From Bacteroidaceae bacterium (lineage in GTDB: Bacteria; Bacteroidota; Bacteroidia; Bacteroidales; Bacteroidaceae): a stretch of DNA of 64,000 nt. A program made the position numbers and the translations under genes. Under the pieces are notes generated by a model. It worked only from the letters and a program-made list of their open reading frames with translations. It had not been told where the DNA came from and made no database searches. Every line of letters starts with the position of its first letter. Position 1 is the first letter of the stretch. The DNA lies in assembly GCA_017483765.1 (NCBI GenBank), contig JAFUVE010000027.1:1-64000 (forward strand). Direction: 5' to 3'. This document shows, in pieces, positions 7,781 to 26,600 of this stretch.

Positions 7781-7987
7781 TTAAAACTCCTCTTCGTGCT
7801 CCATCGCCCACAGTGCGTAGGCGGTCTCATTGCCTTCTTCGAGCACCTCAATTTCCACATCGCCGCTCCGCCCTTTCGACGGGCCGTCGGGAGCGGGTTT
7901 GCCACTGCCCGGACCTGAGTCCACAAGCAAGGCATGACTGAACGTGATGACTGATTCTACACTTGGCTTTATATATTTCGCTTTCAT
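7781..7987 (-). CDS. Small acidic YxKP protein, copy A
   Basis: This 68-residue protein begins MKAKYIKPSVESVITFSHAL, continues with a Gly/Pro/Ser-rich middle (GPGSGKPAPDG) and ends in an acidic tail (AMEHEEEF). No known domain is recognised. Copies B, C and D in this window share the layout: an N-terminal Y-x-K-P, a short hydrophobic stretch near residues 15-22, a Gly-rich hinge, then a Glu-rich end. It begins 217 bases after the stop of the C10 protease gene, whose product ends in the NGKKVLVK tail. There is no signal peptide and no transmembrane helix. Function is unknown. Small peptides with a YxxP start are, as far as I recall, frequent in Bacteroidales, but I know of no assigned role. 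Confidence 0.7.
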   Translation of the reverse strand: MKAKYIKPSVESVITFSHALLVDSGPGSGKPAPDGPSKGRSGDVEIEVLEEGNETAYALWAMEHEEEF

Positions 7988-8089
7988 AAATTTTCTTTTA
8001 CTTTTTTGCTAATAATTCTCGCAAACGGCTCATTTGCTGCCTGTTATCATTCACTTATCCAAAAGAATTTCCAGATTAAAAGGACTTCC

Positions 8090-8128
8090 ATTGCCCGTCG
8101 TGTGGCTCGCGATAGCATCGCGGGCAAT
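8090..8128. other. Stem-loop between C10 protease and small gene A
   Basis: ATTGCCCG at 8090-8097 pairs with CGGGCAAT at 8121-8128. Inside and overlapping it lies CGCGAT-AGC-ATCGCG. The element separates the protease stop codon from small gene A and could tune read-through. It is followed by low-complexity 'ttcattcttcattc' sequence. Confidence 0.5.
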
Positions 8129-8204
8129 CAAAGTTTGTCCTGCTCATCCATCCGCATGGCCAATTCTTCATTCTTCATTCCTCATTCTTCATTTAACTCA
8201 CTTT

Positions 8205-11200
8205 TCACTTAACAAGCACCTTCTTTCCGTTATGGATATACACGCCACGGCCTGGACGGCTCACACGCTGTCCCTGCAGGTTATACCAGCCATTGTCCAT
8301 GCTTCTGCCATCTACGGATGTACGTGCCAGCGGCGTACGGATGCCTGTGGCCTGACCGCCACCGTCTCCGATGACGATGCTGACCACGCCGGCGCCTCTG
8401 ATCACATTGCCCTTGTTCTCAAAATAGGCAGAGAACGGATCAACGACCTCTCCGTCGCTGCTCACACGGACGAAGGCGTTACCGTCAGCGTTCAGCACGT
8501 ATCCGTTGGTGATGACAGCGGGCGTGTACGTTCCTTTCATGCTCAGCTGCTGGCCTGTGATGCTGCATTTCGCGTCGGTGCTGAACTCCGTGATGTCGCC
8601 GCTGAAGACGAGCTCCTTACCGTCAAGATTCCAGTTGTCACCGTAGGACTCGTCGGGAACTGCGATGAGATAGGGAATATTGGCCTTGAGCTCGGTTCCT
8701 GCGACATAGTCGAAGTGGGCCTTGCCTCCCTCTTCATACAGGAACTGGTAGAGCCAGAAGTTCTTGCCTGCGTCGCTGGCGCTTTTAAACCACTCGACGG
8801 GCTCTCCCTCACAGCTGACCTGAGTGGCTTCGAACGGAAGCACCAGAGTGCTCCAGCCGTCTTTGCTGTCTTCCTTGCTTCCTTCGAACGAAGCGGTATA
8901 GCTCACGGCGTCGGAGACGAAGTCCCACAGGATATAGAAAGGATAGTTCTGATAGAGATTGATGACGTCGGCCGACGTACCCTTCACCACGTTCTGGCCG
9001 GATAGGCTCGACGGCACCGTCTGCCTGTCATCGAAGTAATAGATGCAGTTCGGATTCGTGCTGGGCACGACGGACGTACTGCTGCTCACACTGCAATGAG
9101 AGAAGTCAACTGCGCAGGTATACTGGGGGATGACCATTTCCGAAGATTTCGGAACGAACGAAACGGCTTCGTCTGCGTCATAGCACAGAAGACCTTCGCT
9201 CACGGTGAACGTGACGGAGGCAAGGATGTCAGGATTGTCGCCAAAAGGATTTCCATTGGTCAGAATAAAAGTATAAGTCTCACCTGGAGTCAAATCGTCC
9301 CGCATCACAGTCCGTGAATAGGAGCTGCCTGCACCGATTGTAGTCTTAAAGCCATTCGCACTTTTGTCGCCCTTCATGATATAATAGAATGAGCCGCCCA
9401 CAGAGGCAGTTGTCGTGTTCGTCAAGGTCACATCTGCTGTGAAGACATCAGAAACCAGGTAGTTCACGCCGTCCGTTTCAATAAGGTTCTCGACATCCAG
9501 AGAGGCGGTGAACTGTCCGGCATCGCTTGACGTCGTTGAAGTGACTGTTGCTGTACCCAGCAAACGGCTGCACACGTCTCCGCTGATTTCCCAGAAATAA
9601 AGTGTGTGTGTTCCGTCACTCGTCGGGGTGAAATAGAAGTAGGCGGTGCCGGGTCCGTTGGCATAGGTATAGACGCCGGCAATGGTGCTTTCCAGATTGC
9701 TTGCCACTGACTCATAATCATAGTTGGCCAGGCTACTGGGATAGTCGGCCACCATCACCACCATCCCGTTGTATTCCTCGTCGGTGTTGTTCTGGAACGT
9801 GGCTTTCACTTCCTGAAACGTACCAGTATAACCCGTCCCGGTGAACGTTGCACCGGTCACGCTGAGATCACATTCTTTCGGATAAACCTCCACGCTGGCG
9901 ACCGCGCCGTTCTCGATGGTCACCACGGCATAGTTTCTCTTGTAGCCGTTTGCCGGTCCCCACTGACCCAGGTCGTTGCTCGCCGTGGTACTCTGCACAC
10001 CAGTGACGGTGTAGGTGCCGTCTGAAAGGCCGGATGCCAGCTGGCGGTAGCTGATGCTGGGTGAATAGTAATAGCCGCTTTGAAGTCCGGAAGCATTGGT
10101 GATGCCGTAAATCCGGGACACCTTACCCTCGCTGTCCACCACGCCGAAGCTGTAGTATATCGTGCCGAGCGTCTGCGTCGTGTTGTTCGACATGTCCATG
10201 GAAAGATTGTTTCCACCGTCGGCCACATTGCTGACGGTCAGCCCGTCGGTGCCGGATATCGGCTCTGTCGCCTCGCGCTGAAGGCCGATCAGCGCGTCCT
10301 GCATGAAGGAATAGCCGTCCTCCGTGCTGCTCGCACCGGCTCCGTCGTTACTCTCGGAATTGAGCACGGAGAGGGAGAAATAGCCGTTGTACGTTCCGCC
10401 CCAGCCCCAGTTGATGTGGTAAAGGCCATCGCCGTCGTAGCCGTCGCAGATAAAGGAATGTCCGCCGCCGGTCGACTGTCCGGAATACAGCACGGGCCGG
10501 TCTGCAGCCAGCTCACTGTAGATTAGGTTTTCCCACTCTGTGTTGGTATAGTCGCTGCGGTCAGCCAGGTAGGCGTTGGGATTATAATGGAAATAGTTGA
10601 TGAAGGCCTTCAGGGCGTCGGGCGAGGAGGCCGACGAACCGCCAGTGCCGTAGTTCATCTTCGCGCCCTGACCGCAGTAGCGCATCAGCGTGCCCACGGC
10701 CTGAGCTGCGGCCGAGTTGACATCTGTCAGGTCCGTACCGATATATTCGTCCTGCATGTTGTCCCAATCAAAGGTGATGGCAGGCAGCTCGTCAAGTGTG
10801 CCGATGGTCGAGTTTGACGTGTACGAAGGCACAACCGTGGTGGCACCCTGCGGCCATTTGTGGTAGTACATCACCTGGGCCATCGCGGTCGCCACACAGC
10901 CGGTCAGGCAGTGGCGGGTTTCACCGTTTGGATAGTTATAATTCGGGCAATTCCAGTTATAGGCTTCTCCCGCTGCCGTCTTGATACTTCCCTGGTTCCA
11001 TTCCGACGTGGTCATCGGGCTGATGGGCGACTTCACCGACACCGGGGCTTTCTGCTTCGAGATTTTCCTGGCACCTCCCGCATTGGCTTGCTGAACCAGA
11101 CGGCCCACATTCGTCACCCAGGCCTTCACGTTATCGGGCATATTGCCAAGGTCGAACGTGCCGTCATAGCCGTAGGCCAAAACCGGCTCTGTCGCCTCTG

Positions 11201-11435
11201 AGTTGGCAACCAGCACGAATCCGCCGTCACTGGCGTTCACGGCATAAAGGCCGTCGTTCACTTTCTCTGCCCGCAGATTTCTCAGTTTCTGAGAGACACC
11301 CCTGCGGCCGGACTGATGACAGCGGGCATTTAAAAACTCTCCCGCACGGCTGACTGCCTCCTCCTGGCTGATCTGAGCAGACGCACCGACCAACAGAACA
11401 AGGCAGCAACAGCATAACATTAAAAATCTCTTCAT
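8205..11435 (-). CDS. Secreted C10 (streptopain/interpain-like) cysteine protease with C-terminal tail
   Basis: This 1076-residue protein has a signal peptide (cleavage near GASAQ), a Spi-type propeptide at about 22-140, and a C10 papain-like domain at about 140-385. The catalytic Cys180 is in HCLTGCVATAMAQVM and the catalytic His326 is in GGGHSFICDGYD, followed by YHINWGWGG. This matches Prevotella interpain A and streptococcal SpeB. The long C-terminal part holds Ig-like beta-sandwich repeats with unclear family membership. The end (WYNLQGQRVSRPGRGVYIHN then GKKVLVK) resembles a short type IX secretion sorting tail. It has its own promoter at 11540-11571 and is followed by small gene A. A protease among pectinases may process or mature the other secreted enzymes, or degrade cell-wall glycoproteins; this is inference. 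Confidence 0.9.
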   Translation of the reverse strand: MKRFLMLCCCCLVLLVGASAQISQEEAVSRAGEFLNARCHQSGRRGVSQKLRNLRAEKVNDGLYAVNASDGGFVLVANSEATEPVLAYGYDGTFDLGNMPDNVKAWVTNVGRLVQQANAGGARKISKQKAPVSVKSPISPMTTSEWNQGSIKTAAGEAYNWNCPNYNYPNGETRHCLTGCVATAMAQVMYYHKWPQGATTVVPSYTSNSTIGTLDELPAITFDWDNMQDEYIGTDLTDVNSAAAQAVGTLMRYCGQGAKMNYGTGGSSASSPDALKAFINYFHYNPNAYLADRSDYTNTEWENLIYSELAADRPVLYSGQSTGGGHSFICDGYDGDGLYHINWGWGGTYNGYFSLSVLNSESNDGAGASSTEDGYSFMQDALIGLQREATEPISGTDGLTVSNVADGGNNLSMDMSNNTTQTLGTIYYSFGVVDSEGKVSRIYGITNASGLQSGYYYSPSISYRQLASGLSDGTYTVTGVQSTTASNDLGQWGPANGYKRNYAVVTIENGAVASVEVYPKECDLSVTGATFTGTGYTGTFQEVKATFQNNTDEEYNGMVVMVADYPSSLANYDYESVASNLESTIAGVYTYANGPGTAYFYFTPTSDGTHTLYFWEISGDVCSRLLGTATVTSTTSSDAGQFTASLDVENLIETDGVNYLVSDVFTADVTLTNTTTASVGGSFYYIMKGDKSANGFKTTIGAGSSYSRTVMRDDLTPGETYTFILTNGNPFGDNPDILASVTFTVSEGLLCYDADEAVSFVPKSSEMVIPQYTCAVDFSHCSVSSSTSVVPSTNPNCIYYFDDRQTVPSSLSGQNVVKGTSADVINLYQNYPFYILWDFVSDAVSYTASFEGSKEDSKDGWSTLVLPFEATQVSCEGEPVEWFKSASDAGKNFWLYQFLYEEGGKAHFDYVAGTELKANIPYLIAVPDESYGDNWNLDGKELVFSGDITEFSTDAKCSITGQQLSMKGTYTPAVITNGYVLNADGNAFVRVSSDGEVVDPFSAYFENKGNVIRGAGVVSIVIGDGGGQATGIRTPLARTSVDGRSMDNGWYNLQGQRVSRPGRGVYIHNGKKVLVK

Positions 11436-11486
11436 AATTTTGTATTTTTTTATTTGTTTCTTCCCTTTCTTTCAACCACCCAGGTA

Positions 11487-11530
11487 ACTAAACTCTAAAC
11501 CCTAAACTCTCAACTCTAAACCCTCAACTA
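11487..11530. repeat. Short repeat of CTAAACYCT type in the protease leader
   Basis: Degenerate copies of 'ctaaactct/ctaaaccct/caactctaaaccc' lie between the promoter and start of the protease gene. The same repeat type recurs at 18070-18085, 29075-29100 and 62580-62650. Confidence 0.65.
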
Positions 11531-11539
11531 ATAAAATTA

Positions 11540-11571
11540 CAAAATTACGAAAAATCCCCCACAACCACAAA
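11540..11571 (-). promoter_or_regulatory. Bacteroidetes-type promoter for the C10 protease gene
   Basis: On the minus strand, TTTG (11568-11571) is followed after 20 bases by TAATTTTG (11540-11547). Both elements fit the TTTG/TAnnTTTG consensus. It leaves a leader of about 100 bases containing the CTAAACYCT repeats. Confidence 0.65.
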
Positions 11572-11594
11572 TAATTACATAAAAAACAAGCACC

Positions 11595-11640
11595 CAACAA
11601 AAATCAGGGCAGGCAAAAACGGATATTCTTGCCTGTCCTG
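11595..11640 (-). terminator. Rho-independent terminator after small gene B
   Basis: CAGGGCAGGCAA (11605-11616) pairs with TTGCCTGTCCTG (11629-11640) over 12 bases with one G-T pair. On the minus strand the stem is followed by a U-rich stretch (complement of caacaaaaat). It closes the unit PL1-CE8 gene plus small gene B, before the separate protease promoter. Confidence 0.75.
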
Positions 11641-11671
11641 ATGATTAAAAAGATAACGGATCTGTCTGAAC

Positions 11672-11875
11672 CTACCAAAGGGAAGCGGTCGTTTTACCAC
11701 CATTCTCCGTCTCTATGACAAACTGCTCAAAGGCTTCTTGCTCCTCAAGTTCCTCCTCGCGCTGACGAGCGTCGCCGCCACCACCTCCTCCGCCGCCATT
11801 AGGAGCGGTCATCGCTATCATATGCGTGGGGGTGAGCAAAGCGGTTTCACAAACTGGTTTTATATAGAATTTCAT
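11672..11875 (-). CDS. Small acidic YxKP protein, copy B
   Basis: This 67-residue protein starts MKFYIKPVCETALLTPTHMI, has a run of eight glycines near residues 27-34, and then a Glu-rich charged stretch (REEELEEQEAFEQF) ending in SLW. The REEELEEQEAF segment resembles REELEEE(D/E)xF of copies C and D, and the final LW is shared with them. It starts only 34 bases after the PL1-CE8 stop codon and is followed by a terminator, so the pair is one transcript. No domain, signal peptide or modification enzyme is seen nearby. Function is unknown. Confidence 0.72.
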   Translation of the reverse strand: MKFYIKPVCETALLTPTHMIAMTAPNGGGGGGGGDARQREEELEEQEAFEQFVIETENGGKTTASLW

Positions 11876-11909
11876 TTTCTTGATTTGTTGGTTTTAATGA
11901 AACAAGGAA

Positions 11910-14900
11910 TTACTTCACGATGAGTTTTTTTCCGTTGACGATATATAGTCCTTTCGACGGTCTTGCCACCCGGCGGCCGCTGAGGTCGTAAACCTGAGGC
12001 TGCGATGTGTCTGAGGTGCCTATGCGTCCGATGCCGGTCGGGGTGTCGTCTGCCTCGAAATTGAGGTCAAGCGACTTGACGCCATCCTGGCTTTCCGTCC
12101 TGAAATAAGCACGGGTCGGTTTGAACCATACGGTCGAAGCGGCATAGACGGCCTTGCTGTCCTGGATCATATAAATGGACAGATCGCCGTCTGGGAATTC
12201 CGTATATTGATAGACGCCGGTCATCGTGATGTTCTCTCCTTCAGTGGAAAGCATGCCGTCTGAAACTGCCACCAAGGTCTTGTCGGTGAAAGTGTAGGTG
12301 GCCTGCCGGCCGTCAGCTCCCGTCACCACCACGAGATAGGGCTTGTTGGCTGCCATCCGGCCGTCAGCCTGCTCGTCGAAGACGATGGCTCCGCCCTTGA
12401 TCTTGCTGACGGTATAGACGCTGAACTCCATGCCTGTCACGTCGAACAGCTCAGCTGCGTCGGTGGCAAACGGAAGGACAAGCGTGTTCATGCCTTCCTT
12501 GAAGGTGCGGGTGAGCTCCACGTCGAAGGTGCCGGAGACGCTGCCGTCGTAGTCCTCGTCCTCGCTCAGCGTGACAACCGTCGACTTCACGGCCTCGGTG
12601 GCTATGCCCAGACCGCCCATGGCGTTGGCGGCACGAACGGAATATGTGGCGTTGGCGTCATCAACGGTGTAGGTCGGCTCCTGCGTGAAGCCTACCACAT
12701 GACCGTCCTTCACAACCGCCCAGCAGAAGGCATAGCTGCTGTCGTCCCAGGTGAGGGTGGTGCCGGTGAGCACTACGTTCTTGGGAGACGGGGCCTGCTC
12801 GGTATAGTCGGTCGGAACCCAGCTGCCGAACATGTTGCTCATGTCGGAAGCCTCAGCGGCCTCGGCGGCAGTGAGAACGGGATTATTGGTATAGCTGCTG
12901 TTGAAAGTTGTCTTACGTCCGCTCAGGTCCACCGCAACGCCATCGGAAGTCCGGGAGTTGTACTCGGCAAAGCGTTTCGGCCAACCGTTGCTCATCTCGG
13001 CCCAGCCAATGCTGGAAGGAATGATGTTCATCGTCGTGTTAATCCACAGCGCAACGGGGGTGCCGTTGCCCCAAGGACGGCCGAGATAGTATTTGGTGTT
13101 GAGGGAAGTGCTCTCGCCGTTGATGGTACATCCGCTGAACACATAGCCGTACTTGATGCTCTTCGACGGAACGGCGATATAGCCACCGGTGTTCATGCAC
13201 ACCTGAATCACCGTCTCGTTGAAGAAGGCGTCGCCCTTGCCGCACAGGAAGTCGGTGCGACCTCTCAGCAGGCCGCCCTCGAAGTAATACAAGCCGTTGT
13301 CGTTGTTTGAGGTCCATGTGTCCTGATAGCCCCAAAGGCACACGTTCTTGTAGATGTTCTTCGTGCCGCGGTCCTGAAGCGCGATGTTGCGGCCCAGACC
13401 GTCCGGAATGCCGCTCTTCACGGTCAAATCCTGGAAGTAGATGCCGCTGATGCCGTTGCTGATCTGCAGTACGTCGCTCTTGCTGATACCGTCATACACG
13501 CTGGTCTGTCCCTGCGACACGCTGGTGTTCGTGTACGTTCCCGCATTAGCCAGGTCGTTGGTGATCACCACGCCGTCGCGGCTCTCACCGATGAACGAGA
13601 TGTTGTTGGCCTTGATGTAGGTGATCGGGCTCGGATAGGTGTTCCCGTCTCCGCCGGCTATCGTCTCGGTGGTGCTCAACGGCAGGGTGTAGGTGCCGTC
13701 ATAAAGGAAGATCCGGTAGCGGGCAGACTTGTCAGAACGTGTGTTAGCGGCGTTGATGGCGGCCACGAGGTCGTCATCGCTCTTCACGTAGTAGTCGTAG
13801 ATGCCTTTCTCGACGGGCTGCTTGTCTGACGCGCTCAACGTGCCGTTCACAACCACGTTGCCGATACACATCTGCTTGTTGTTAGCCACGTTGGAGATAT
13901 AGAAACGCAGCGTGAACACGTCGCAGGCTTTTCCGCTGATCTCGGCCGTGTGGTTCAGGTTGGCCGCATCAGCGTTCGCATTGCTGTTGCGCAGGATGGA
14001 GGTGGCTGGGACTGCCTGGATCGCGCTCTCCACGCCGTCAATCGTGTAGCTCCAGGAGAAATAGGCGTTGTCGGTGCCTACTTTCACGGCGTCAAAGCTG
14101 ACGGAGGTCGGAGTGAACAGCTTGCCGTCGGCTGCGCTCACGGTATATTCGATCATCACGTCTTCTGTCGTACCGGCATTGCTCACCGCAGGCTGGTATT
14201 TCACCATCGTGCCACAGTCGGGAATGGCGGTATAGGAAGCGGTCTCACAGGTCAGGCCGCTGCCCACTTTCACCGTGGTGTTGGACACATAGTCCTGCAG
14301 TTCTTCGGCCACGGTGGCGCTCGCCTCGTCGCCCACCGGCCATACAATGCTGCCGGAGATGCTCGGGATGGTCCAGGTGTAGTTGAAGCCGTAGAAACCG
14401 AGCTTAGAGCCGGTGCAGTAGACCTTATAGGTGGAGCCGGCCTTCACGTCGAAGGTGTAGGTGCCGTAATATTTCTCTGCCGACGTGATGCCGTTGTAGT
14501 CCGGCAGGGCTACGTCGTCCTCCAGGATGTAGAACGCCTTGCCGGCATTGAGCACGACGGCCACGTCGATGGTGCCATTGTACACTGGAGTGATAAGATA
14601 TACGGTGCCGCCGGTGCTGCTGCCGTTCGTCCCGTTTCCGTCTGTGGCGGCCACAAAGCCTTCGGCCAGGCCATTGCTCTTGGCGGCGGTAAAGGCGTTA
14701 CCTCCTGGGAAGCCGTACTGCACGGTGGCGATGACATCTCCGTTATATGTCACGTCGACGGTCTCGCCGGAATCGAAGGCGTCGCCTTCATAGAGCAGGT
14801 AGGTGGCATTGGCGGTCACGCCCTCAGGGTCCTCGTGGGGCTCCTCCTCTTCAGCGGTGGTGGTCCATGTGTAGTTGAAACCGTAGAAGCCGAGTTTCGA

Positions 14901-16928
14901 ACCGGTGCAGTAGACGGCATAGGTGGACCCGCCTTTCACGTTGAAGCTATAGGTGCCATAGTATTTTGTGCTCTCCGTGATGCCGTTATAGCCGTCGAGG
15001 GCCTGTCCGTCCTCCAGGATGTAGAACGACTTGCCGGCATTCAGGACGACGGCCACATCTACGGTTCCGTCATATTCGGGCTTGATGTAATAAACCGTTC
15101 CGCCGGTGGCACTGCCATTCACACCGTTGCCGGCGGTGAAGGCGGCAAAGCCGCTGACACTGCCGTTGGCACTGGCTGCGCCGAAGTCCGCGCCACCCTC
15201 AACGCCGTAGGTCACGGTGGCGACGGTATTGCCGTCACTCTCCACGTTGACAGTCTGACCGGAAGTGAAGGTCTCGCCGGCGGTCAGCGCGTAAGTGGCG
15301 GTGGCGGTGATGGTCTGAGTCGACACGGATTTGGGATAATACTCGTTTACGCTGCTCTGAGCGTCTTTGTTCTCGTTCTTCATGATGCTCTCAACCACGG
15401 AGCTGAGGTAGACTTCCAGGTTGGTGTAGTAGCCTTTCTCGGTGTCGAGGGTATAGGTATGCGCGTCGCTCGCGTCGTTCGGGTTGAGACCGTTCTTGCT
15501 CTCCCATTCGTCGGGCATGCCGTCGCGGTCGGTGTCATAGCCGTCGGGACGGCTGCCGGTGCCGAAGTTGGACTCGGTATAGCCGTTGCAGTCCGACACA
15601 CGGTCGATCAGGCCTCGCTTGCCGGACACGCTGCCGGTATAGGTGGCGGTGCCGCTCTGGGCTTCACGCATATAGCGGGCGTCCACGTTGTCGCGCACCA
15701 ACGACGCGCCGGCATAGGCCATCACCTTGTCGAAGGCATTGGCGGCCGTGTGGGTGGTCACCTCGCCTTTCGGAGCCTCGCTGTCAAGCTTGATCTTCAC
15801 GCAGTCCTCGCCATTCGTGTTCTTCTTGTAAGTGACGTCGCTGCCGTAGTAGTGGTTCACGTCCTTGCAGTAGCGCTCACCGTCGATGGTGTAGACACCG
15901 CTGTCATAGCCCACGCCGCCCCAGTCTTTGTTGGCGGTGCCGTCCAGCTGGTTGCCGCTGATATAGTAGCGGCTGGTGAGGTCGTAATAGGGGCTGTTGC
16001 TACCAGAGTTGTCGGAGTTTGCCACCGACACGGTGGTGATACGTGTGGTCGAGGCCGACGGACCGGTCTTGTAGTAGTTGTTCACCATGTTGATCTGGCC
16101 GCCGCCCGGACCGCCGTAGCAGCCGTTGCCGCAGTTGTAGACCACGCAGTTTCTGAAGTCCACGTTCTCGGCCTGAACGGCATTCTGCCAGTTGTAGGTG
16201 CTGTAGAGCGCGTTGTTGGTATAGTTCGTCCAGTCATAACGGGCACCGCAGAAGCGGGGGGAGCGGTTTGCCACGTGGCATATCAGGTTGTGATGGAAGG
16301 AGGCCAGCTTGCCACCCCATATGCCGCCATAGCCGTGGGCACCCTTGTTGTGGCCGGCCTCCAGGAGGCTCTCACCGATCGTGCACCACTGCATCGTGAA
16401 GTTGTTGTTGTCGTAGAACGAAGCCACCTCGTCGATGCTCCAGGAGAAGGAGCAGTGGTCGAGGATGATGCCGGTCTTATTGCGCTGCCACAACGCATCG
16501 GCACCATCGTCAACGTCTCTCTCCTGGCCGCGCCGGATACGGATGAAACGGATGATGTTGTTGGCACCGGGGCGGACGGTGTAGTAACGGATTGTGATTC
16601 CGGGGTCAGGGGCCGTCTGACCGGCGATGGTTGTGTTATCGCCGATGGTCAGCTCGCTGTTCAGAGCAATCACGCCGCCAACGTCGAACACGATGGTCTT
16701 GTAGGCGTTGCCGCTCACGGCGGCGCGGAGAGAGCCGGTGCCGCTGTCGTTCAGGTTCGTCACATGGATCACGTTCGTGGCACCGGTCGACGGATTTCGT
16801 CCGCCGCTCACATACCGGCCATGGCCTTCAGCACCTGGGAATGCCGGGGCGCCTGTCTGCGCATTTGCCTGTCCGAAAAGCAATGTGGACAGCAGCATAA
16901 GCGCAACAAATTTGATTTCTCTTGTCAT
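11910..16928 (-). CDS. Secreted two-enzyme pectinase: PL1 pectate lyase plus CE8 pectin methylesterase
   Basis: This 1672-residue protein has a signal peptide ending QANAQ. The PL1 domain covers about 25-480 (AFPGAEGHGRYVSGG, HVTNLNDSGTGSLR, LDHCSFSWSIDE), and a TSP3-like calcium motif (DRDGMPDEWE) follows. Two consecutive 145-residue modules (about 539-700 and 703-856) share most positions, each ending YGFNYTW. An unclassified beta-rich domain (about 858-1040) starts IVWPVGDEASATV. The CE8 domain (about 1041-1350) shows GYQDTW near 1199, GRTDFLCG near 1225 and YLGRPWG near 1282, covering the Gln/Asp, Asp and Arg of the active site. A linker and the tail IYIVNGKKLIVK finish it. It would demethylate pectin and then cleave it with one polypeptide. 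It has its own promoter at 17001-17031. Confidence 0.9.
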   Translation of the reverse strand: MTREIKFVALMLLSTLLFGQANAQTGAPAFPGAEGHGRYVSGGRNPSTGATNVIHVTNLNDSGTGSLRAAVSGNAYKTIVFDVGGVIALNSELTIGDNTTIAGQTAPDPGITIRYYTVRPGANNIIRFIRIRRGQERDVDDGADALWQRNKTGIILDHCSFSWSIDEVASFYDNNNFTMQWCTIGESLLEAGHNKGAHGYGGIWGGKLASFHHNLICHVANRSPRFCGARYDWTNYTNNALYSTYNWQNAVQAENVDFRNCVVYNCGNGCYGGPGGGQINMVNNYYKTGPSASTTRITTVSVANSDNSGSNSPYYDLTSRYYISGNQLDGTANKDWGGVGYDSGVYTIDGERYCKDVNHYYGSDVTYKKNTNGEDCVKIKLDSEAPKGEVTTHTAANAFDKVMAYAGASLVRDNVDARYMREAQSGTATYTGSVSGKRGLIDRVSDCNGYTESNFGTGSRPDGYDTDRDGMPDEWESKNGLNPNDASDAHTYTLDTEKGYYTNLEVYLSSVVESIMKNENKDAQSSVNEYYPKSVSTQTITATATYALTAGETFTSGQTVNVESDGNTVATVTYGVEGGADFGAASANGSVSGFAAFTAGNGVNGSATGGTVYYIKPEYDGTVDVAVVLNAGKSFYILEDGQALDGYNGITESTKYYGTYSFNVKGGSTYAVYCTGSKLGFYGFNYTWTTTAEEEEPHEDPEGVTANATYLLYEGDAFDSGETVDVTYNGDVIATVQYGFPGGNAFTAAKSNGLAEGFVAATDGNGTNGSSTGGTVYLITPVYNGTIDVAVVLNAGKAFYILEDDVALPDYNGITSAEKYYGTYTFDVKAGSTYKVYCTGSKLGFYGFNYTWTIPSISGSIVWPVGDEASATVAEELQDYVSNTTVKVGSGLTCETASYTAIPDCGTMVKYQPAVSNAGTTEDVMIEYTVSAADGKLFTPTSVSFDAVKVGTDNAYFSWSYTIDGVESAIQAVPATSILRNSNANADAANLNHTAEISGKACDVFTLRFYISNVANNKQMCIGNVVVNGTLSASDKQPVEKGIYDYYVKSDDDLVAAINAANTRSDKSARYRIFLYDGTYTLPLSTTETIAGGDGNTYPSPITYIKANNISFIGESRDGVVITNDLANAGTYTNTSVSQGQTSVYDGISKSDVLQISNGISGIYFQDLTVKSGIPDGLGRNIALQDRGTKNIYKNVCLWGYQDTWTSNNDNGLYYFEGGLLRGRTDFLCGKGDAFFNETVIQVCMNTGGYIAVPSKSIKYGYVFSGCTINGESTSLNTKYYLGRPWGNGTPVALWINTTMNIIPSSIGWAEMSNGWPKRFAEYNSRTSDGVAVDLSGRKTTFNSSYTNNPVLTAAEAAEASDMSNMFGSWVPTDYTEQAPSPKNVVLTGTTLTWDDSSYAFCWAVVKDGHVVGFTQEPTYTVDDANATYSVRAANAMGGLGIATEAVKSTVVTLSEDEDYDGSVSGTFDVELTRTFKEGMNTLVLPFATDAAELFDVTGMEFSVYTVSKIKGGAIVFDEQADGRMAANKPYLVVVTGADGRQATYTFTDKTLVAVSDGMLSTEGENITMTGVYQYTEFPDGDLSIYMIQDSKAVYAASTVWFKPTRAYFRTESQDGVKSLDLNFEADDTPTGIGRIGTSDTSQPQVYDLSGRRVARPSKGLYIVNGKKLIVK

Positions 16929-18052: not shown

Positions 18053-18174
18053 CCCCATCACCAACATCCACTCTAAACTCTCAACCCTCACAAAAATTGT
18101 AAAAACTACACTTATAAACCTTTCATTATCAATTACTTAATAAAAGTTAAAATTACAACTTTTCTCCAAAATTA

Positions 18175-18206
18175 TTTGTTCGTCAAAAAAAAACTTCGTA
18201 AATTAG
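18175..18206 (+). promoter_or_regulatory. Probable promoter for the 54-residue ORF
   Basis: TTTG (18175-18178), a 20-base spacer and TAAATTAG (18199-18206) fit the consensus except for two bases of the -7 box. The leader to the start codon is about 85 bases. Confidence 0.45.
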
Positions 18207-18296
18207 CACTCGAAAAGATCGGATGGTGTCCCGCCACCCGAAAAGTTCAAACAAAAGGCCTATCGGGACTGTGGCCGTCTATGGAGGAATATTACT

Positions 18297-18461: not shown

Positions 18462-18480
18462 CACAAATCTAACAGGGAAC

Positions 18481-18520
18481 GAAAGCCGCAGGCATCATTG
18501 CCTGCGGCTTTCCTTTTTTC
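18481..18520 (+). terminator. Strong rho-independent terminator
   Basis: GAAAGCCGCAGGC pairs perfectly with GCCTGCGGCTTTC across an ATCATT loop, followed by CTTTTTTC. It ends the 54-residue ORF unit. Confidence 0.9.
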
Positions 18521-18594
18521 TGTACTTATTTTGGCCGTATAGGCAGGGCAGCACGTTGCCGGCTGCCCCACCCCATCTTGTATCTGTCTGTCCC

Positions 18595-18780
18595 TTACCA
18601 CAGCGACGTCTGCTCCTCCGCGGCCAAGGCCTCGAGGAAGGTGTCTTCCTCCTCAAGCTCCTCGCGCTCACGGGTCTCGCCGTGGTCCACACCCGTTCCG
18701 CTTACCGGAAGCTGCTCCAGCAGCAGGCTGCCAACAGCCCCGTGTAGCACCGTCTCGGGTTTATGATATGTTCGTCTCAT
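18595..18780 (-). CDS. Small acidic YxKP protein, copy C
   Basis: This 61-residue protein starts MRRTYHKPETVLHGAVGSLL, has the hinge LPVSGTGVDHG, then an alternating charged run (REREELEEEDTF) and ends QTSLW. It is identical to copy D at 50 of 61 positions. It begins 84 bases after the stop of the PL11 gene at 18865. The block covering the end of that gene, the spacer and this ORF is a near-duplicate of the same block at copy D. Function is unknown. It carries no cysteines and no signal peptide, so a cytoplasmic or leaderless peptide is most likely. Confidence 0.75.
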   Translation of the reverse strand: MRRTYHKPETVLHGAVGSLLLEQLPVSGTGVDHGETREREELEEEDTFLEALAAEEQTSLW

Positions 18781-18864
18781 TGTCTTATCCTCAAGTTTTT
18801 ATGTGAACAGCGAAAAGTCCATCCACAAAAGTAAATAAACTTTTCACCATTCACTATTCACTTT

Positions 18865-21800
18865 TCACTTAATTACCACTTTCTTGCCATTCACGATATA
18901 GATGCCCTTACCCGGCTTCGTCACACGGCGACCCGACAGGTCATAGACTACGGCTGCCTTACCCGCAACATCACCCTGAGGAGCGTTGATGCCGGTCGGT
19001 GTATCGTCGTCCAGTTCGTCAGCACCGAACACGATTCCCTTCACGTCCTGACCCGACAGCTGCAGATAGCCCTTTCCATAAGCCACCGTACCATCACTCT
19101 TCAGCTTGTAGAAACCGGTCTTACCGTTCACCTGGTTCAGCACGTAGATATCACCGCTCTCGCCAGTCAGTCCGCCTTCAGGAACGGCTTTCAGGTCGTT
19201 GCCGCTCAAGCTGGCTGCGCTGCGCACCATCGTCCCGGCATAGATATAGTCGGAGGCCAGGTCATTATCTCCCTGCTTGCGGAGCAAAACTGCCTCACCG
19301 GCAGGAACAGCGTCAACCGCAGTCAGTTCTACCGACTTGCCGTCGGCGTTCAAAGCCACTGCATACATGTCCAGTCCGCCGAAAGAAAGACCCACCTTAC
19401 TATAGGCAAAAGTAGAAGCATCGAGCGACGAGAGCTTCGTGCCTATCTCGGAGTCGTAGCTGATGGAAGAGGAAGTAGCTCCCGGATAGGACGACTGAAC
19501 CGTCAATGTGCCCGGCTCAGTAAACGTATAGGCGAAGTCGGACATCGTCTGAGGAACGCTTACCTTCACATTGTCAATCGTAAAGAAAGAATAAGTTTTG
19601 CCAAGCTCCACGTACACGCCCTGAATGCGCATGTCGGCTGCCGAGCCCACGGCATAGGCTCCACTTGCAATCACCAGCCCGCACGACTCTTTCAATGAGA
19701 CGGTGTATGAGACGGTTCGATTGGTCCGGTCAACCGTAAATGCGTAATGATACCAAGGGCCGGTCGCTTCTCTCGGATTCGGGTCGTTCACGGTAAACGA
19801 ACCGCCGTCACCCTCGACCGTATAAACCCGGCCATAATTGCTGCCGCCCGTCATCTTGAACACATAGTTCGTGCCGACACTGAAGGCACTTCCGGCTGTA
19901 CGCTCGCCGAACAGATAGAGGGCATTATTGGCAGAGCCACTGGTGTTGGTGTAATGAATCCGGGCATCAAACTCAAGCGTGTAGACATCTGCATCCCCGT
20001 AAGGATCGCTGCCGGAGCCATAGAAGTTCGTATAGGCACTGCGTGTCCCGCCTCCACCGTTGTTATTCACGTTCACATACTTCCCATAAGTCGCGTCACC
20101 CTCAACCAGTGTGATGTCCAGCTTGTCCCCGCTGACTGCAGTCCAAGAGCCGGCATCGGTGGCGGACTCATAGTCGAGGGCAAACAGCTCACCGGAAGGA
20201 ATGGTCTTATAAACATAAATATTATCGATATTCGTGGTGCCGTTTCCGCGGCCGTCAAGCACGAACAGACCGTAAAGTTCGGAAGAGGTACCGTCAGGCA
20301 GTGCAAAAGTGCCTTTTACAGACGAATTGCCCTGGGCTATCGTATAAGTGACCGTCCTGGCTGTTTGGTCAACCTCCAGTTTATAATGGCTCCAGCCTGC
20401 ACTGATGTCAGCCGTCTCACTTTCATTAATCGTGAACGTCTGGCTGTTTGCCGCTTTCATGCGGAAAAGATAGTTCATGCCTGTCGCATTGCAGTTTCTT
20501 CCGTTATAATTATATCCGATATTTTTTGTTGTGGGAATTACGGCGCCCTTGCTCATGACGACAAAGTCAGTCTCGCTTCGGTCGGCCACATTGCCTGCCT
20601 TTACATATGCGTCAAACTCAACTGCATAGGTCTCAACTGAAGTGAGGTCCAAGTTAAAAAGCGTATACGCTGAGCGGTTTGCTGCAATATTGGTTTTTTC
20701 CATCGTATGATGAATATAATTGCCATAATTGGCATCTCCTCCGACCAGTTCCAATATACCGTCGCCGTTTGTCCAGGAACTTGCATCTACGGCCTGTTCA
20801 TAGTCCTCACCAAACAGCCGGTTCTCATCCACCGTCTCTGTCCTGCCATCAAGACTCGTAAAGGTGGTGCTGACCGATACAGGACGCTGTGCCACTCCGT
20901 TCAAGGTGTACGCCCCAACGCTGACGTCCACATGAGGCATATACACATTGCCTGGCTCTGCGACTACCCAGTCGGTACGGGCGATCTCAGGATTCACCAC
21001 ATTTCCGTCTCCGGGCTCTATCTGGCTCATGTCGTTGAACTGTTCCAGATAGTCTGGGAGATAATAGCCGAGATGGGGGGGCTGGTTGTAAGCCACGTTC
21101 TGCCAGGCCACACTCAGACGGTACACATGGTCGTGCATCAGCGTCGGCACACGGTAAGCGGTCGGTATCACCGTCGAGAAGATATTGAGCGTCGTGTTGT
21201 CGCTGGTGTCATAAAGGATAAGCTCTTCGCGCCAGTCGCCGAAGATGTCGGCGGAGAGACAGGGGGTGTCCTTCGTGCCGTTGCAGGAACCGGAGCTGCC
21301 CAAGTCCGTAAAGAGGGTACCGCCCACTCCTAGGTTGGTCACACTGCAGTCGCGCCCGATTCTCGCAATCGACGTACCGGAGGAGAGATTGTCGTAGGGC
21401 TCACCGTCCCAGTAGGTACGGAAATTCATGCTAACACCTTTCCATGACATCGTCGTGCCGTCCATGAAATGAATATTGTCGACTTTAGCCGACCAGTATT
21501 CGAAACCGCGCTTCTGAGGAAAGATATCAGCCGACAGGCCTCGGCCATTATCGCCACCGCTGGTGGAGAAGTCCAGAATCTCGCCAGTGCTGGCATCTCT
21601 CAGGTGGTGACCGTAATGGGGGCCGTCCTCATGCACCATGAAGAACTCCAGGCCGGGACGGTCGGGGTCTAAGTCTGAAAAATGGTGGGCATCACCATGC
21701 TGAACACCGGTGGAATAGCGTAAGGTACCGTCGGCATTGACGGCAGCACCTCCGAACAGGATCTCGTCTGTGCCGTCCCCGTCGGTATCGCCCGCGGCGA

Positions 21801-23094
21801 TGCTGTGCGTGCCTTGGCCGTAGGCGGTGTAATAGGCGGTGGCGCTTCCGCTCCAAGCCGACTCCTTCACCTTGTTGGTGGAGCAGATGTAGTTGGTCAC
21901 GTCAAAAGTATCATTATTGGATGCCTTAGGCTTATAAAGCTTATAGGTGCTCTTGGAGTCTGAGTAATGGACCCAGCGGTTGGTCAGACGTGTTCCGTCA
22001 AAGTCCACTGCCCAAAGAAACGCATAGGTGTAATAACCGCGGGTGAACACGCCGCTGGCTTTCTTCACCGCACCGTCTAGATGGGCGACGGTGGCAAGAT
22101 AGCGCTCGCCACGGTTGCCATAGGTACCGATATCCGTGTTGCCGGAACGGTCGTCCCAGTCGAAGGTGCCGGCGGCGTCGCTCAGTCCTAACGTTGCGTT
22201 ACGGGTCGGTAGATAGGGAATCGTATGGATAGCGGCGCCGGTCTCGCCGTTGAACACGGTCAGGTACTCATGACCGCCGTTGATACGTCCACCGCTGGTT
22301 CGGTAATCTGCGGAATTATTCACATTGCGAATGGTCGTGTTCGTGGCGGCAGCACTCACGTAATTGCCCCTGCCGTCCACACTGCCGGGAGCGGTCTTGC
22401 ACATCAGCTCTGACTTACCGTCGCCGTCAAAGTCATAAACCAGGAACTGGTTATAATGTGCGCCGGATCGCATGTTGATGCCGAGGTTGATGCGCCACAG
22501 CCGCGTGCACCCGTTGGCCTTCGTGGCGTCAAGCTTGTAGCAGTCAAAAATCGTCTCGCCGGTAAAGCCGCCCTGGGAGTTGTCCTTAGCATTCGAAGGA
22601 TACCATTTCACGATCAGCTCATACTGGCCGTCGCCGTCTACATCACCCACCGAGCAGTCGTTTGGGGTGTATGTGTAGCTTTCGCCGTTCACAGAACCGG
22701 CTGACGGCTGGTCCAGCTTCACCTTCAGATATGACTGGGTCCAGGGCTTCACGGCTGACGAGGTCTCGGTCAGCACCCCGTTCTGATAGGTCTTCACCTG
22801 ATAGCTCGCGCCGCTGCCGGCATCGTCCAGCTCAAGGAAAGTGGCGCCGGTTATACCGGACGCAACGGTCTCACCGTTGCGGACGATATCAAAGGATGTC
22901 TGCATGTCGTCTGTTCCCAGCAGGCGCCAGCTCACATAATGTTTCCCGCCACAAGGAATCACAATCAGGCCGCGGTCCAGACGCTCCATCTGACTCACGG
23001 GGGTCACCTGCCTGAACTGTGCGCTCACGGGAAGGGCACAAATCGCTGTCATCAGGATAACCGACAACAATTTTGTCTGTAGTAGTCTTTTCAT
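18865..23094 (-). CDS. Secreted PL11 rhamnogalacturonan lyase with sandwich modules and C-terminal tail
   Basis: This 1409-residue protein starts at the internal ATG 23094 (MKRLLQTKLLSVILMTAICA), because only this start gives a clean signal peptide. The PL11 beta-propeller covers about 25-640, with NDCSVGDVDGDGQYELIVKW, TIFDCYKLDATKANG, AHYNQFLVYDFDGDGK and DIFGDWREELILYD, very close to YesW/YesX-type lyases that cut the rhamnogalacturonan I backbone and bind calcium through DxDxDG loops. Two laminin-G-like modules follow, each beginning with an LF..DYE-type motif. The end is VTKPGKGIYIVNGKKVVIK, the tail shared with three other enzymes here. Small gene C follows. A TAACTTTG promoter box is at 23201-23208. 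Confidence 0.9.
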   Translation of the reverse strand: MKRLLQTKLLSVILMTAICALPVSAQFRQVTPVSQMERLDRGLIVIPCGGKHYVSWRLLGTDDMQTSFDIVRNGETVASGITGATFLELDDAGSGASYQVKTYQNGVLTETSSAVKPWTQSYLKVKLDQPSAGSVNGESYTYTPNDCSVGDVDGDGQYELIVKWYPSNAKDNSQGGFTGETIFDCYKLDATKANGCTRLWRINLGINMRSGAHYNQFLVYDFDGDGKSELMCKTAPGSVDGRGNYVSAAATNTTIRNVNNSADYRTSGGRINGGHEYLTVFNGETGAAIHTIPYLPTRNATLGLSDAAGTFDWDDRSGNTDIGTYGNRGERYLATVAHLDGAVKKASGVFTRGYYTYAFLWAVDFDGTRLTNRWVHYSDSKSTYKLYKPKASNNDTFDVTNYICSTNKVKESAWSGSATAYYTAYGQGTHSIAAGDTDGDGTDEILFGGAAVNADGTLRYSTGVQHGDAHHFSDLDPDRPGLEFFMVHEDGPHYGHHLRDASTGEILDFSTSGGDNGRGLSADIFPQKRGFEYWSAKVDNIHFMDGTTMSWKGVSMNFRTYWDGEPYDNLSSGTSIARIGRDCSVTNLGVGGTLFTDLGSSGSCNGTKDTPCLSADIFGDWREELILYDTSDNTTLNIFSTVIPTAYRVPTLMHDHVYRLSVAWQNVAYNQPPHLGYYLPDYLEQFNDMSQIEPGDGNVVNPEIARTDWVVAEPGNVYMPHVDVSVGAYTLNGVAQRPVSVSTTFTSLDGRTETVDENRLFGEDYEQAVDASSWTNGDGILELVGGDANYGNYIHHTMEKTNIAANRSAYTLFNLDLTSVETYAVEFDAYVKAGNVADRSETDFVVMSKGAVIPTTKNIGYNYNGRNCNATGMNYLFRMKAANSQTFTINESETADISAGWSHYKLEVDQTARTVTYTIAQGNSSVKGTFALPDGTSSELYGLFVLDGRGNGTTNIDNIYVYKTIPSGELFALDYESATDAGSWTAVSGDKLDITLVEGDATYGKYVNVNNNGGGGTRSAYTNFYGSGSDPYGDADVYTLEFDARIHYTNTSGSANNALYLFGERTAGSAFSVGTNYVFKMTGGSNYGRVYTVEGDGGSFTVNDPNPREATGPWYHYAFTVDRTNRTVSYTVSLKESCGLVIASGAYAVGSAADMRIQGVYVELGKTYSFFTIDNVKVSVPQTMSDFAYTFTEPGTLTVQSSYPGATSSSISYDSEIGTKLSSLDASTFAYSKVGLSFGGLDMYAVALNADGKSVELTAVDAVPAGEAVLLRKQGDNDLASDYIYAGTMVRSAASLSGNDLKAVPEGGLTGESGDIYVLNQVNGKTGFYKLKSDGTVAYGKGYLQLSGQDVKGIVFGADELDDDTPTGINAPQGDVAGKAAVVYDLSGRRVTKPGKGIYIVNGKKVVIK

Positions 23095-23116
23095 TTTAAT
23101 TGGTTTGTTATAGTAG

Positions 23117-23136
23117 AGACGCGCCGTGGTGCGTCT
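23117..23136. repeat. Palindromic element AGACGC...GCGTCT, copy 1
   Basis: AGACGC and GCGTCT pair around GCCGTGGT. A perfect nine-base version occurs at 35599-35618. In both places it lies next to a 27-base dispersed element. Confidence 0.65.
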
Positions 23137-23156
23137 TGTATCTTTTCTCTGCACTT

Positions 23157-23183
23157 GTAGGGGCTTACTTTATGTATGCCCGC
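23157..23183 (+). repeat. 27-base dispersed element, copy 2
   Basis: This copy has GTAGGGGCTTAC, then TTTAT, then GTATGCCCGC. It lies in the leader between the promoter box and start of the PL11 gene. Confidence 0.8.
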
Positions 23184-23200
23184 ACATCTCAACGTCTCTG

Positions 23201-23208
23201 CAAAGTTA
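23201..23208 (-). promoter_or_regulatory. Promoter -7 box for the PL11 gene at 18865
   Basis: TAACTTTG on the minus strand matches the consensus. The -33 element is not clear. The leader would be about 100 bases and contains the 27-base element. Confidence 0.5.
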
Positions 23209-23345
23209 GGTAAAATTCCTCACTTCCGACTTGTCGGATAATCCGATTTTCAAGGGATATTATTCAAAAAAATGCTATTCCATAAAAAGGAGGGCCGACA
23301 CATTGCCGACTCTCCCCTTTCTTGATTTTCTCTGTAAAAAAATCC

Positions 23346-23531
23346 TTACCACAGCGGCGTCTGCTCCTCAGAGGCCATGGCCTCGAGGAACGCCTCTTCC
23401 TCTTCCAGCTCCTCGCGCTCGCGGACCTCACCATGGTCCACGCCTGTGCCACTCACCGGTAGCTGTTCCAGCAACAGGCTACCTAAAGCATCATGCCGCA
23501 CAGTCTCTGGTTTCTGATATGTTCGTTTCAT
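23346..23531 (-). CDS. Small acidic YxKP protein, copy D
   Basis: This 61-residue protein starts MKRTYQKPETVRHDALGSLL and ends EEQTPLW. The start was set at 23531 rather than the longer frame at 23579, because copy C starts at the matching codon and the extra residues have no counterpart. It is 82 percent identical to copy C, most strongly over SLLLEQLPVSGTGVDHGE. It begins 83 bases after the stop of the PL11-like gene at 23615. A weak G-U containing stem (23285-23330) lies after its stop. Function is unknown. Confidence 0.75.
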   Translation of the reverse strand: MKRTYQKPETVRHDALGSLLLEQLPVSGTGVDHGEVREREELEEEEAFLEAMASEEQTPLW

Positions 23532-23614
23532 TGTCTTATTCTCAACTTTTTTTGTGAACAGCGAAAAGCCTATCCACAAATGTAAATAAACTGCTCACTG
23601 TTCACTTTTCACTT

Positions 23615-26600
23615 TCACTTAATTACCACTTTCTTGCCGTTCACGATATAGATGCCCTTACCAGGCTTCGTCACACGGCGACCCGACAGGTCATAAATCA
23701 CAGTCGGCTTGTCAGCCTCATCATCATTCACGCCGATGATGCCGGTAGGAGTGTCGTCGTCGAACATCGACAATGCCTTCGTCGTCAAGCCATTGATCTC
23801 AAGATAGCCACGGCCTACAGTCACCGTTCCTGTATCATTCAGTTTGTAGAAGCCGACTCCCGAAGCACCCGTGTTCAGAACGAAGATATTTCCGTTGCCA
23901 TACACGGTCTCTGTAGTAGGAATCAAGTCGTTGCCTGTCCAGTCTGAAGCATCGGACACAATCTCGGAGGCGAATATCTCGCCGGCAGTGCCTTTGATCA
24001 GGCCGGCGGTACCCTGAGGCAGAATGCCGTCGCTCACGAGCGTGGTCGTCACGTTCTTCTTGTCGCTGTCTACCGCTACCTTATAAAGTTCCAGTCCGCT
24101 CTTCGAGAAGTCAAGCGATGCCAGCTGGTAGTTCAGCGTGCTGTAACCCAGCGTGCCCACCTTGGCGCCTATCTCAGAAGTATAGCTGGTGGACGACGAC
24201 ATACAGCCGTCATAACTTGCTGTCACAGTCAACGTGCCAGGCTCTGTGAAGGTGTAAGTCGACAGGTCGGTGGCTTCCTTTGTGGTTGTGATAGAGATGT
24301 TGTCAAGTTTAAATATTGAATAGTAGCGTCCAGCCACAAGATAGAAACCACGAATATCACCACTGCCAGTATATGTGAATGTGCCAGAATCACCATTACT
24401 GATTGACCATTTCACAGTTTTAGTGGTCTTATTCACATTTAAAGTGTAATGATACCAAGTACCTCCACTCAAAGTTGTAGTAGTCGAAGTGCCATTTATC
24501 GTATAGTTAGTTGACGATTTACCAGCACTGATGTCAAACAACAAATTCTGATAGCTGTTGATGGAAGCATAATTATCCCATGTAGTAGTAGGATTCTTAC
24601 CTCCCTGACTCATCACACAGAACTCAACTCCGTCGGTGTTGCCAGATGTAACAGCTAAATCAAAATCAATATTGTATGTATCCATTTCCGAAACATCAAG
24701 ATTCAATTCATTATATGCATAACGTGTATTGGTGCTACCTGTGTTCACATAGAAATAGCTGCCATAGGTTTCATCGCCTGTTGCAAGGCTCATATTCGCG
24801 CCAGAAGTGACCCATCCCGTCACCCCAGTCTCATTCTCATAATTCTGTGCAAACAGCTCTGTGGTGACACTGGACTTGTAAATATAGATATTGTCGATGC
24901 CTGCACCGCCTGGCTCATAGTTGTAACGTCCATTTCGGATATAGATGCCGTCACATTCAGCACTTTCGCCGTCTAACAGCGTGTATGAACCAGAAGCAAC
25001 CGCAGTGGCAGTTCCTTTCGGGCAAATCTGATACCCAACGGTTCCTGCCTCCACATCAACAGACAGCACAAAATGATACCAAGTAGAGTTGTTGAGTGTC
25101 ACAGTGTTCCCTTCCACTTCATTGATGGTAAATGTAGTAGAGTTCTCACCACGCATCATATAGAATAAATATGGATTATGTCCGAAAGTAGTTGCATTCA
25201 GCCAGTTATATCCATAGTTGTAAGTCCATGAAGCAGCGTGACTTTTACTCATCACGACAAAATTAGTTTGCTTTGAAGCGTTATTGAAGTAAGCGTCAAA
25301 TTCTATATTATAGTTCATCACACCATCATAATCAGCTGTAATTTTCGTCCAGTCCCCCCTGTCACTACTCGATTGCATTCCAATGCACTGACCTTCACTG
25401 TTATCATAAGACGGGGAATAAATATAGCTGCTGTTATTGTTCACCCAATAGTCAGAAGCGGTTGTACTTCCTTCAAAGTCCTCGTAGAACAACGTATTTT
25501 CTATCACCGTTTCCGTTCCGTCGAGTGCGGTGAACACTGCCGACAGGTTCGGGCTTACGGTATTGCCTTTGTATGTGAACGGTGTGCCGCTGATGCTCAC
25601 CGTTGGGTAATAGACGTTCAGGCCTGTCTCGTTCCATGATGTGCGGGCGATTTCAGGAGCCGGACATTCCACAGCCTCTCCTGTACCGATTTTCAGGTAC
25701 CAGTTACCATTCTTATGTACAAGCTCGTAGGTGTAGTTCGAAAGTCCCTCGACCGTAAGGTTGGAGAAGTCAGCCTCGTTGGTGAGCGAGCCTAAGAGAT
25801 ACATGCCGTCGGCCAATGTGCCATGGGGCACGAATTCCAGCACCGGTTTGAGGTATTGCGGTCCGTAAGTCTCCCAGTTGTCTCCCGACACGCTGTTGAG
25901 CACGAGGCTCTCCATATTCACGTGGTCAGCAGAGATGTTGCTGCCATATACGTCCATCTGCAAGCGAGCACCATAGTTAAGGGTGAGCGTCGTGGTTGTG
26001 ATGTCTCCGCGGTTGTCTGCCCCACCCGGCTTAATGGTTGACGCATAGAGCGACTCGATGCCAGCACCGAAAGTTCCGCCATTAGAACTGAGGGTAGTGA
26101 AACGATTCATCCACACCGGGCTGTTCTGCAACGTTCCGTCAAACTCCACTGTTCCAGCCCAGATGTCAGTCTTGCCCGTATAGGTGTGGGTGTTGGTCGC
26201 CATCTTCAGCGTTCCGTCGCCCTGCTTCACCAGGTGCATACCGCCCGTGAGCGCGCCACCGGTAAGCGTGTGGGTGTAAGTGTAAGTAGTTAAAGTACCA
26301 CCATCAGACGTACCTGTAGTCACCCATGTAGGAGCATTGTCAATAAGCATATATGGAGCTGCACCAGAATTGACTGAAACAGACATATTGCCAGTAGCGG
26401 CCAACAAAACCTGCTTACCATCATAGCTTGAATTTATCGTTCCACTATTACTAATTTCAGTACGGTTTCTGTCTGTGTAAGCAGGAGGAGCAACAGTGAA
26501 ATTCTCCAAAGCACCGACAAAATAGCTTACATGAGGAGGTTGGTTATAGACCATCATCTGGTTACTCATTGCTTGTCTATATTGATAATCGAACCACAAA

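Follow-up and report, generated by a model that had tools for sequence, protein, structure and literature searches.

Candidate RiPP-type precursor peptides encoded behind type IX secretion cargo genes in Bacteroidales

Introduction

The precursors of lasso peptides, PQQ and linear polyphosphorylated peptides (LPP) have a common RRE-binding leader, [Y/W]xxPx[LVIAFY], according to the accessible part of PMC13381572. LPP were described in Bacillota in 2026, and the same text calls them restricted to Bacillota; within the core cluster, a kinase phosphorylates one core Ser and a peptidase, aided by the RRE, removes the leader, and the role of these peptides is unknown according to its authors (PMC13381572). 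The other described system that bears on the present locus is the short sorting domain (short CTD) of Prevotella intermedia type IX secretion system (T9SS) cargo, which, as outlined in the available text of PMC11969387, consists of a PT/GI cleavage site followed by motifs B, D and E.

In this work, we analyzed a 64,000-nucleotide stretch of Bacteroidaceae DNA (here called the window) that encodes four small proteins, each behind a secreted enzyme with a short C-terminal tail. The window cargo is like the short-CTD cargo of P. intermedia in having a PT/GI site, Y..G, GxY and a basic end; unlike the window loci, a small downstream protein goes unmentioned for that cargo in the accessible part of PMC11969387. 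The small proteins resemble LPP precursors, as these are portrayed in the portion of PMC13381572 available to us, in their YxxP leader, conserved N-terminus, variable C-terminus and occurrence in polysaccharide loci. The LPP motif YxxPxVLxHQxIxFETxxS, taken from the same portion, is present only in part, as YxxPx followed by an often hydrophobic residue and a Ser/Thr at position 20, and membership of the family in the LPP class is therefore not claimed. We consider it likely that the small proteins serve as precursors in a RiPP-type peptide pathway whose modifying kit acts in trans, and that they are coexpressed with selected T9SS cargo. Within the open-licence PMC literature, we found no report of this small-protein family or of a link between T9SS and RiPPs.

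Results

Small ORFs and their upstream genes in the window

The preliminary description had reported four ORFs of 61 to 68 residues that share Y-x-K-P, and all four were confirmed, as minus-strand ORFs of 68, 67, 61 and 61 residues. They start 217, 34, 84 and 83 bases past the stops of genes 8205, 11910, 18865 and 23615, respectively, and each of these genes ends in an NGKK[VL] tail. The features are as follows.

7781..7987, minus strand: small YxxP protein 1, 68 aa, proposed precursor (family profile, 44.7 bits)
8205..11435, minus strand: cargo gene, C10 peptidase with Spi (Inhibitor_I69) domain, short-CTD tail
11610..11635, minus strand: terminator-like hairpin 3' of protein 2
11672..11875, minus strand: small YxxP protein 2, 67 aa, proposed precursor (family profile, 40.7 bits)
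11910..16928, minus strand: cargo gene, pectate-lyase-like (below the curated cut-off), short-CTD tail
18595..18780, minus strand: small YxxP protein 3, 61 aa, proposed precursor (family profile, 35.5 bits)
18865..23154, minus strand: cargo gene, family 11 rhamnogalacturonan lyase, short-CTD tail
23294..23310, minus strand: terminator-like hairpin 3' of protein 4
23346..23531, minus strand: small YxxP protein 4, 61 aa, proposed precursor, duplicate of protein 3 (family profile, 33.9 bits)
23615..28531, minus strand: cargo gene, family 11 rhamnogalacturonan lyase, short-CTD tail

When the whole window was scanned with a tail profile and a family profile, both of which include window sequences, the former matched exactly four genes (58.7 to 60.4 bits) and the latter exactly four ORFs (33.9 to 44.7 bits) among the six ORFs that start M..Y..P. 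The four secreted enzymes earlier listed as lacking the tail (1880, 5496, 35940 and the frame at 37770-40292 that holds 37875) do lack it, and the proposed rule of four partners behind four tail-bearing enzymes against none behind four tail-less ones held within the window, but not genome-wide. Proteins 3 and 4 (18595 and 23346) are 82% identical duplicates, each 3' of a rhamnogalacturonan-lyase gene; therefore, the window offers about three independent cases. The terminator-like hairpins lie on the coding strand, 3' of two of the four ORFs, and such hairpins were in no excess over the whole region (15 versus 14.3 in shuffled sequence). Contig C79, to which the window belongs, comes from an assembly (G000) that is 3.13 Mb long and 69.9% complete. 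The tail-less pectate-lyase-like enzyme at 1880-5410 has a dockerin-type domain (PF00404) at its end, which is unusual here.

The tail as a short T9SS sorting domain

Judged by its motifs, the NGKKV tail is a predicted short T9SS sorting domain (short CTD) of cargo. The upstream genes carry these C-terminal motifs and the same genome encodes a full-length PorU match (C98:19510-22833), which together place them among short-CTD T9SS cargo. At E ≤ 1, TIGR04183 gave 18 matches in this genome and none on C79; therefore, we built our own tail profiles.

Placement of family ORFs behind tail genes

The four-sequence profile found further members in the genus and family of the window. A YxxP ORF was present in 33 of the 36 loci read, two of the 33 lying at contig edges; the remainder (L009, L011 and L021) had none and were excluded. 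Among 31 evaluable loci, the four of the window included, 30 had the ORF 3' of an NGKK-type or GxN-type tail, and the single exception (L022) followed a gene with another end. A 23-row profile then gave a match at E ≤ 0.01 in 152 of 251 genomes of the family, with a maximum of 19 matches per genome. From a second set of 60 places, taken mostly in table order, 59 were evaluable, and 58 of these lay behind a short-CTD-type gene, counting one frame-shifted tail (L120), one variant (L136) and one ORF at a distance of 511 bases (L147). The exception, L164, lies downstream of a gene without a short-CTD tail that we take to be adenylosuccinate-synthetase-like. Visual inspection was used to judge the tails of both sets, and three loci at contig edges (L018, L026 and L137) were not evaluable. 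The gap between ORF and cargo gene among the 58 places had a median of 29 bases, and six ORFs overlapped the cargo gene by 4 or 1 bases; therefore, a single transcript for ORF and cargo is likely.

An unbiased sample was provided by 800 kb of the complete genome G115, in which 29 of 556 genes of at least 110 aa carry the tail. Sixty-seven ORFs in this sample begin M..Y..P, of which 12 exceed 10 bits against the family profile, the next best reaching 4.8. Of these 12 family ORFs, 11 are found no more than 400 bases 3' of a tail gene, compared with 0 of the 55 other M..Y..P ORFs (Fisher test, 9e-12), so that the association is above chance; the twelfth (1103387) lies 23 bases ahead of a lipoprotein-like gene. 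Counted by gene, 10 of the 29 tail genes carry a partner versus 0 of 527 other genes (Fisher test, 3e-14), a share of tail genes that may be overestimated because the source tails of the profile used (A5) are mostly those preceding small ORFs.

In the window's own genome, 16 of 17 family matches are 3' of a tail, the exception being C78:125419. Among its best 30 tail matches, 13 have a partner and 14 have none by the pattern used, 2 have tails that the pattern did not read and the last one is separated from a contig end by 334 bases. The claim that every tail-bearing enzyme is followed by a small ORF therefore fails genome-wide, both here and in G115. Its counterpart, that no other gene is so followed, nearly holds (none of the 527 non-tail genes in G115), but there are exceptions, namely C78:125419, L164, G115 1103387, L199, L176 and the PorU-negative genomes described below. 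Cargo length was tried as a separator of tail genes with and without a partner and was discarded (no difference; P = 0.20); tail score differed slightly between the two groups (P = 0.03), both tests predating the finding of one more partner.

Two tandem small YxxP ORFs are found 3' of one tail gene in G009 (C5, L027/L033) and in G115 (C1:1155054-1155406). Family members with an in-frame stop occur in G012 (C157, L012) and G005 (C231, L025) and are possibly decaying copies or assembly errors.

Selection and sequence anatomy

The small ORFs are a real conserved protein family that is tied to tail-bearing cargo genes. Close pairs gave dN/dS values of 0.05 to 0.43, where computable, in support of purifying selection; only pairs with at least 60% identity were used, a limit that favors low values. 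Searched against Pfam, the small ORFs had no match, and against NCBIfam they had one weak match (SapB/AmfS; E = 0.22).

The shared leader reads MKKxYxxP...hhAxS, with alternating hydrophobic residues between. In 102 nonredundant members, in which Y and P are fixed by the way that members were selected, residues 6, 8, 9, 11, 16 and 17 counted from the Tyr are hydrophobic, a strand-like alternation, and a Ser/Thr peak (64% of members) falls at position 20. In the window, this position is Ser in protein 1, Thr in protein 2 and Leu in proteins 3 and 4.

The other end of the protein behaves differently. Members of one genus resemble each other in their last 8 residues (z = 18 in 2,000 label permutations), but not in the leader (z = -2.3) or the middle (z = 0.1); genus labels in this test were assigned by hand and L022 was left out. 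In the genus of the window, 26 of 29 members end in LW or IW. This shared end motif suggests that the paralogs of one lineage may have a common partner in trans, and the contrast between a genus-specific end and a leader that does not follow genus is what contact of the leader with a conserved partner would produce.

A candidate modifying kit in related genomes

Since YxxP is common to RRE-binding leaders, we searched related genomes for PqqD and a surrounding kit. The search covered 27 chosen genomes, 18 with precursors and 9 without detected precursors. A standalone PqqD of about 89 aa, that is, a discrete RRE, was present in 15 of the 18 precursor-positive genomes; by this search, no kit was found in the window's own assembly, in G012 of the same genus (both assemblies are about 70% complete) or in G168. 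PqqD of the same type was also present in five of the nine genomes in which no precursor was detected at the thresholds used. The co-occurrence of kit and precursor over these chosen genomes is not significant (15/18 versus 5/9; P = 0.18), and PqqD was dropped as a genome-wide discriminator of precursor carriers.

At all 20 loci fetched, including those of G005 and G009 from the genus of the window, genes for an HprK-like kinase, a signal-peptidase-like protein and PqqD lie together. PqqD matches PF05402 well above the cut-off, and the RRE profile matches the solved lasso RREs TfuB1 (1.6e-7) and TbiB1 (1.3e-4). The kinase, present at 20 of 20 loci, has the P-loop GxSGTGKST and matches TIGR04352 below the cut-off (E from 1.6e-9 in G360 to 3.6e-3 in G115). 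The signal-peptidase-like protein matches the archaeal-type signal-peptidase model TIGR02228 below the cut-off in G360, G025, G219 and G115, without a match in G009, and PF00717 above the cut-off in G025; among 16 aligned sequences, the Ser and Asp motifs are present in 15 and the His motif in 14. An NTP transferase (PF14907) is encoded at the kit loci of G036 (E = 2.8e-43) and G360 and at five of five PorU-negative kit loci; phmmer found none at the other 18 kit stretches. An MsbA-like exporter adjoins the kit in G360, G036, G030, G062 and G025 and is farther away in G013; in most Prevotella-type kit loci none was seen. G360, which belongs to another Bacteroidales family, has a kit and 19 family matches, and at 9 of 10 of its loci that were read the ORF is 3' of a tail. 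The earlier statement that no RiPP-type modifying enzyme is visible holds for the 64-kb window, as judged by a motif scan, but not for related genomes, in which a candidate kit lies elsewhere.

A different PqqD-like type, about 117 aa long, is encoded next to a transporter-like gene in G014 and G021 (L304 and L306).

PorU and linkage in cis

Comparison by hand of two lists covering the 251 genomes showed that PorU and precursors occur together in 144, precursors only in 8, PorU only in 51 and neither in 48 (Fisher test, 7e-16). Three of the eight genomes with precursors only are incomplete members of the window's genus. In genus g8, five T9SS-positive genomes have no family match; one of them, G019, was searched for PqqD, and its sole match belongs to another type than that of the kit.

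Stretches of about 17 to 19 kb were fetched around each of eight hits in PorU-negative genomes. In G025, G071, G182, G169 and G076, the YxxP ORF is 5 to 7 kb from PqqD, with an NTP transferase and an HprK-like kinase between them, and these loci (L335, L336, L337, L340 and L342) are exopolysaccharide loci. A peptidase lies within the stretch in G025 and G071, and an exporter adjoins in G025, where Pfam models identify PqqD, NTP_transf_5, Poly_export, a Wzc-type protein, Peptidase_S24 and an ABC exporter. G182 has one ORF in the kit locus and one elsewhere, and the precursor match in G076 is weak (E = 0.03). Because the kit profiles were built from the 20 kit loci, these five loci, which are absent from the sequences of both the kit and the precursor profiles, are the sole independent test of the kit profiles. 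No kit was found in the other three PorU-negative stretches, which surround weaker hits (L338, L339 and L341).

The five cis-linked loci also hold large lipoprotein-like genes without a family match. The label fimbrillin-like, considered for the gene 3' of PorU-negative precursors, was abandoned: the genes at L335 and L342 are without a Pfam match, and none of the NCBIfam matches of the L335 gene is to a fimbrillin model; therefore, we call it lipoprotein-like.

Discussion

If the small proteins are precursors, the kit indicates how they might be handled. The leader (MKKxYxxP, alternating hydrophobics, hhAxS) would be bound by the discrete, PqqD-like RRE, the HprK-like kinase would probably phosphorylate a Ser/Thr at the boundary of leader and core, and the signal-peptidase-like protein would probably cleave the leader off; export might use the MsbA-type exporter found beside the kit genes in some lineages. 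Prevotella-type genomes have a single kit locus, apart from precursors scattered behind T9SS cargo genes, with each precursor probably made from the same transcript as an individual surface enzyme. In PorU-negative relatives, a similar precursor and the kit share one exopolysaccharide locus. We infer cotranscription with the cargo, and likewise any effect on the cargo. It can be envisioned, as a tentative and rather doubtful extension, that a trans-acting phosphopeptide RiPP pathway is coupled cargo by cargo to type IX secretion, each selected surface enzyme having its own peptide, made from the same transcript, matured by one genome-wide kit and brought to the same surface, where it would aid the attachment, stability or signaling of that enzyme.

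One explanation other than a precursor role is that the small proteins are cytoplasmic partners of T9SS cargo, that is, acidic, chaperone- or adaptor-like proteins that bind either nascent cargo or the secretion machinery at its inner face and are never processed. Their genes do sit behind cargo genes, the family and PorU co-occur over the 251 genomes, and by eye the proteins have no obvious signal peptide; however, just 10 of the 29 tail genes in the G115 sample carry a small ORF, five T9SS-positive g8 genomes have no family match, and the family is also found without PorU in a locus with PqqD, an NTP transferase and a kinase. We regard such a role as unlikely. The preliminary description had proposed that the small protein acts in export, anchoring or tail processing of the enzyme; we found no sign of such a direct role, and the family also occurs in PorU-negative genomes away from T9SS cargo. 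Its further suggestion of a signal released with the enzyme is close to the precursor reading reached here.

It is very improbable that the small ORFs regulate, or act as leader ORFs for, the next downstream gene. Behind T9SS cargo, that gene is unrelated and often hundreds of bases away, in one case (916917) it is on the opposite strand, and in the window terminator-like hairpins lie 3' of two of the four ORFs, even though several members in PorU-negative genomes, and G115 1103387 as well, directly precede a lipoprotein-like gene. An inhibitor cognate to each secreted enzyme, active inside the producer, is scarcely credible: it would agree with one small gene per enzyme and with a C10 peptidase among the window cargo, but the same type of leader is found behind peptidase and lyases alike, and the C-terminus tracks genus.

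For the precursor reading, the nearest parallels are phosphorylated peptides. The core LPP kit, as listed in the accessible part of PMC13381572, shares with the kit described here a discrete RRE and, as judged mostly by matches below curated cut-offs, a signal-peptidase-like protease and an HprK-like kinase; the LPP kit also comes with an NTP transferase and an MsbA-like exporter, which in Prevotella-type genomes are often not beside the core three. Unlike the LPP systems covered in that text, those described here are in Bacteroidales, their leader departs from the LPP leader beyond YxxP, and in Prevotella-type genomes they appear as a single kit in trans, the precursors being numerous and dispersed behind T9SS cargo genes. 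Paeninodin-type lasso peptides are similar, on the same partial source, in their PqqD-type RRE, HprK-like kinase, NTP transferase and YxxP/WxxP leader (PMC13381572). They may differ in that no macrolactam synthetase was seen among the genes listed at the kit loci. Prochlorosins have many scattered precursors and one enzyme set in trans, as in the layout proposed here, but their enzymes and chemistry differ from those of the proposed kit.

If the precursor reading is correct, a RiPP class known from Bacillota alone would extend to Bacteroidales, in an unusual layout in which a genome has a single kit and as many as 19 detected precursors, most of them beside a secreted enzyme. It would name substrates for the conserved locus of HprK-like, signal-peptidase-like and PqqD genes, and it would link protein secretion to a peptide-modification pathway in Prevotella-type bacteria. 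T9SS cargo may have peptide companions that were overlooked because their genes are short and lack a model in Pfam or NCBIfam.

The window's own genome also encodes, on contig C70 (L346, approximately 5135-7182), a radical-SAM-type protein whose N-terminal part has a PqqD-like match, adjoined by a protein of many Gly/Cys-rich repeats (CGSSYxCxGxGxGG); judged by eye, this looks like a different RiPP-like pair.
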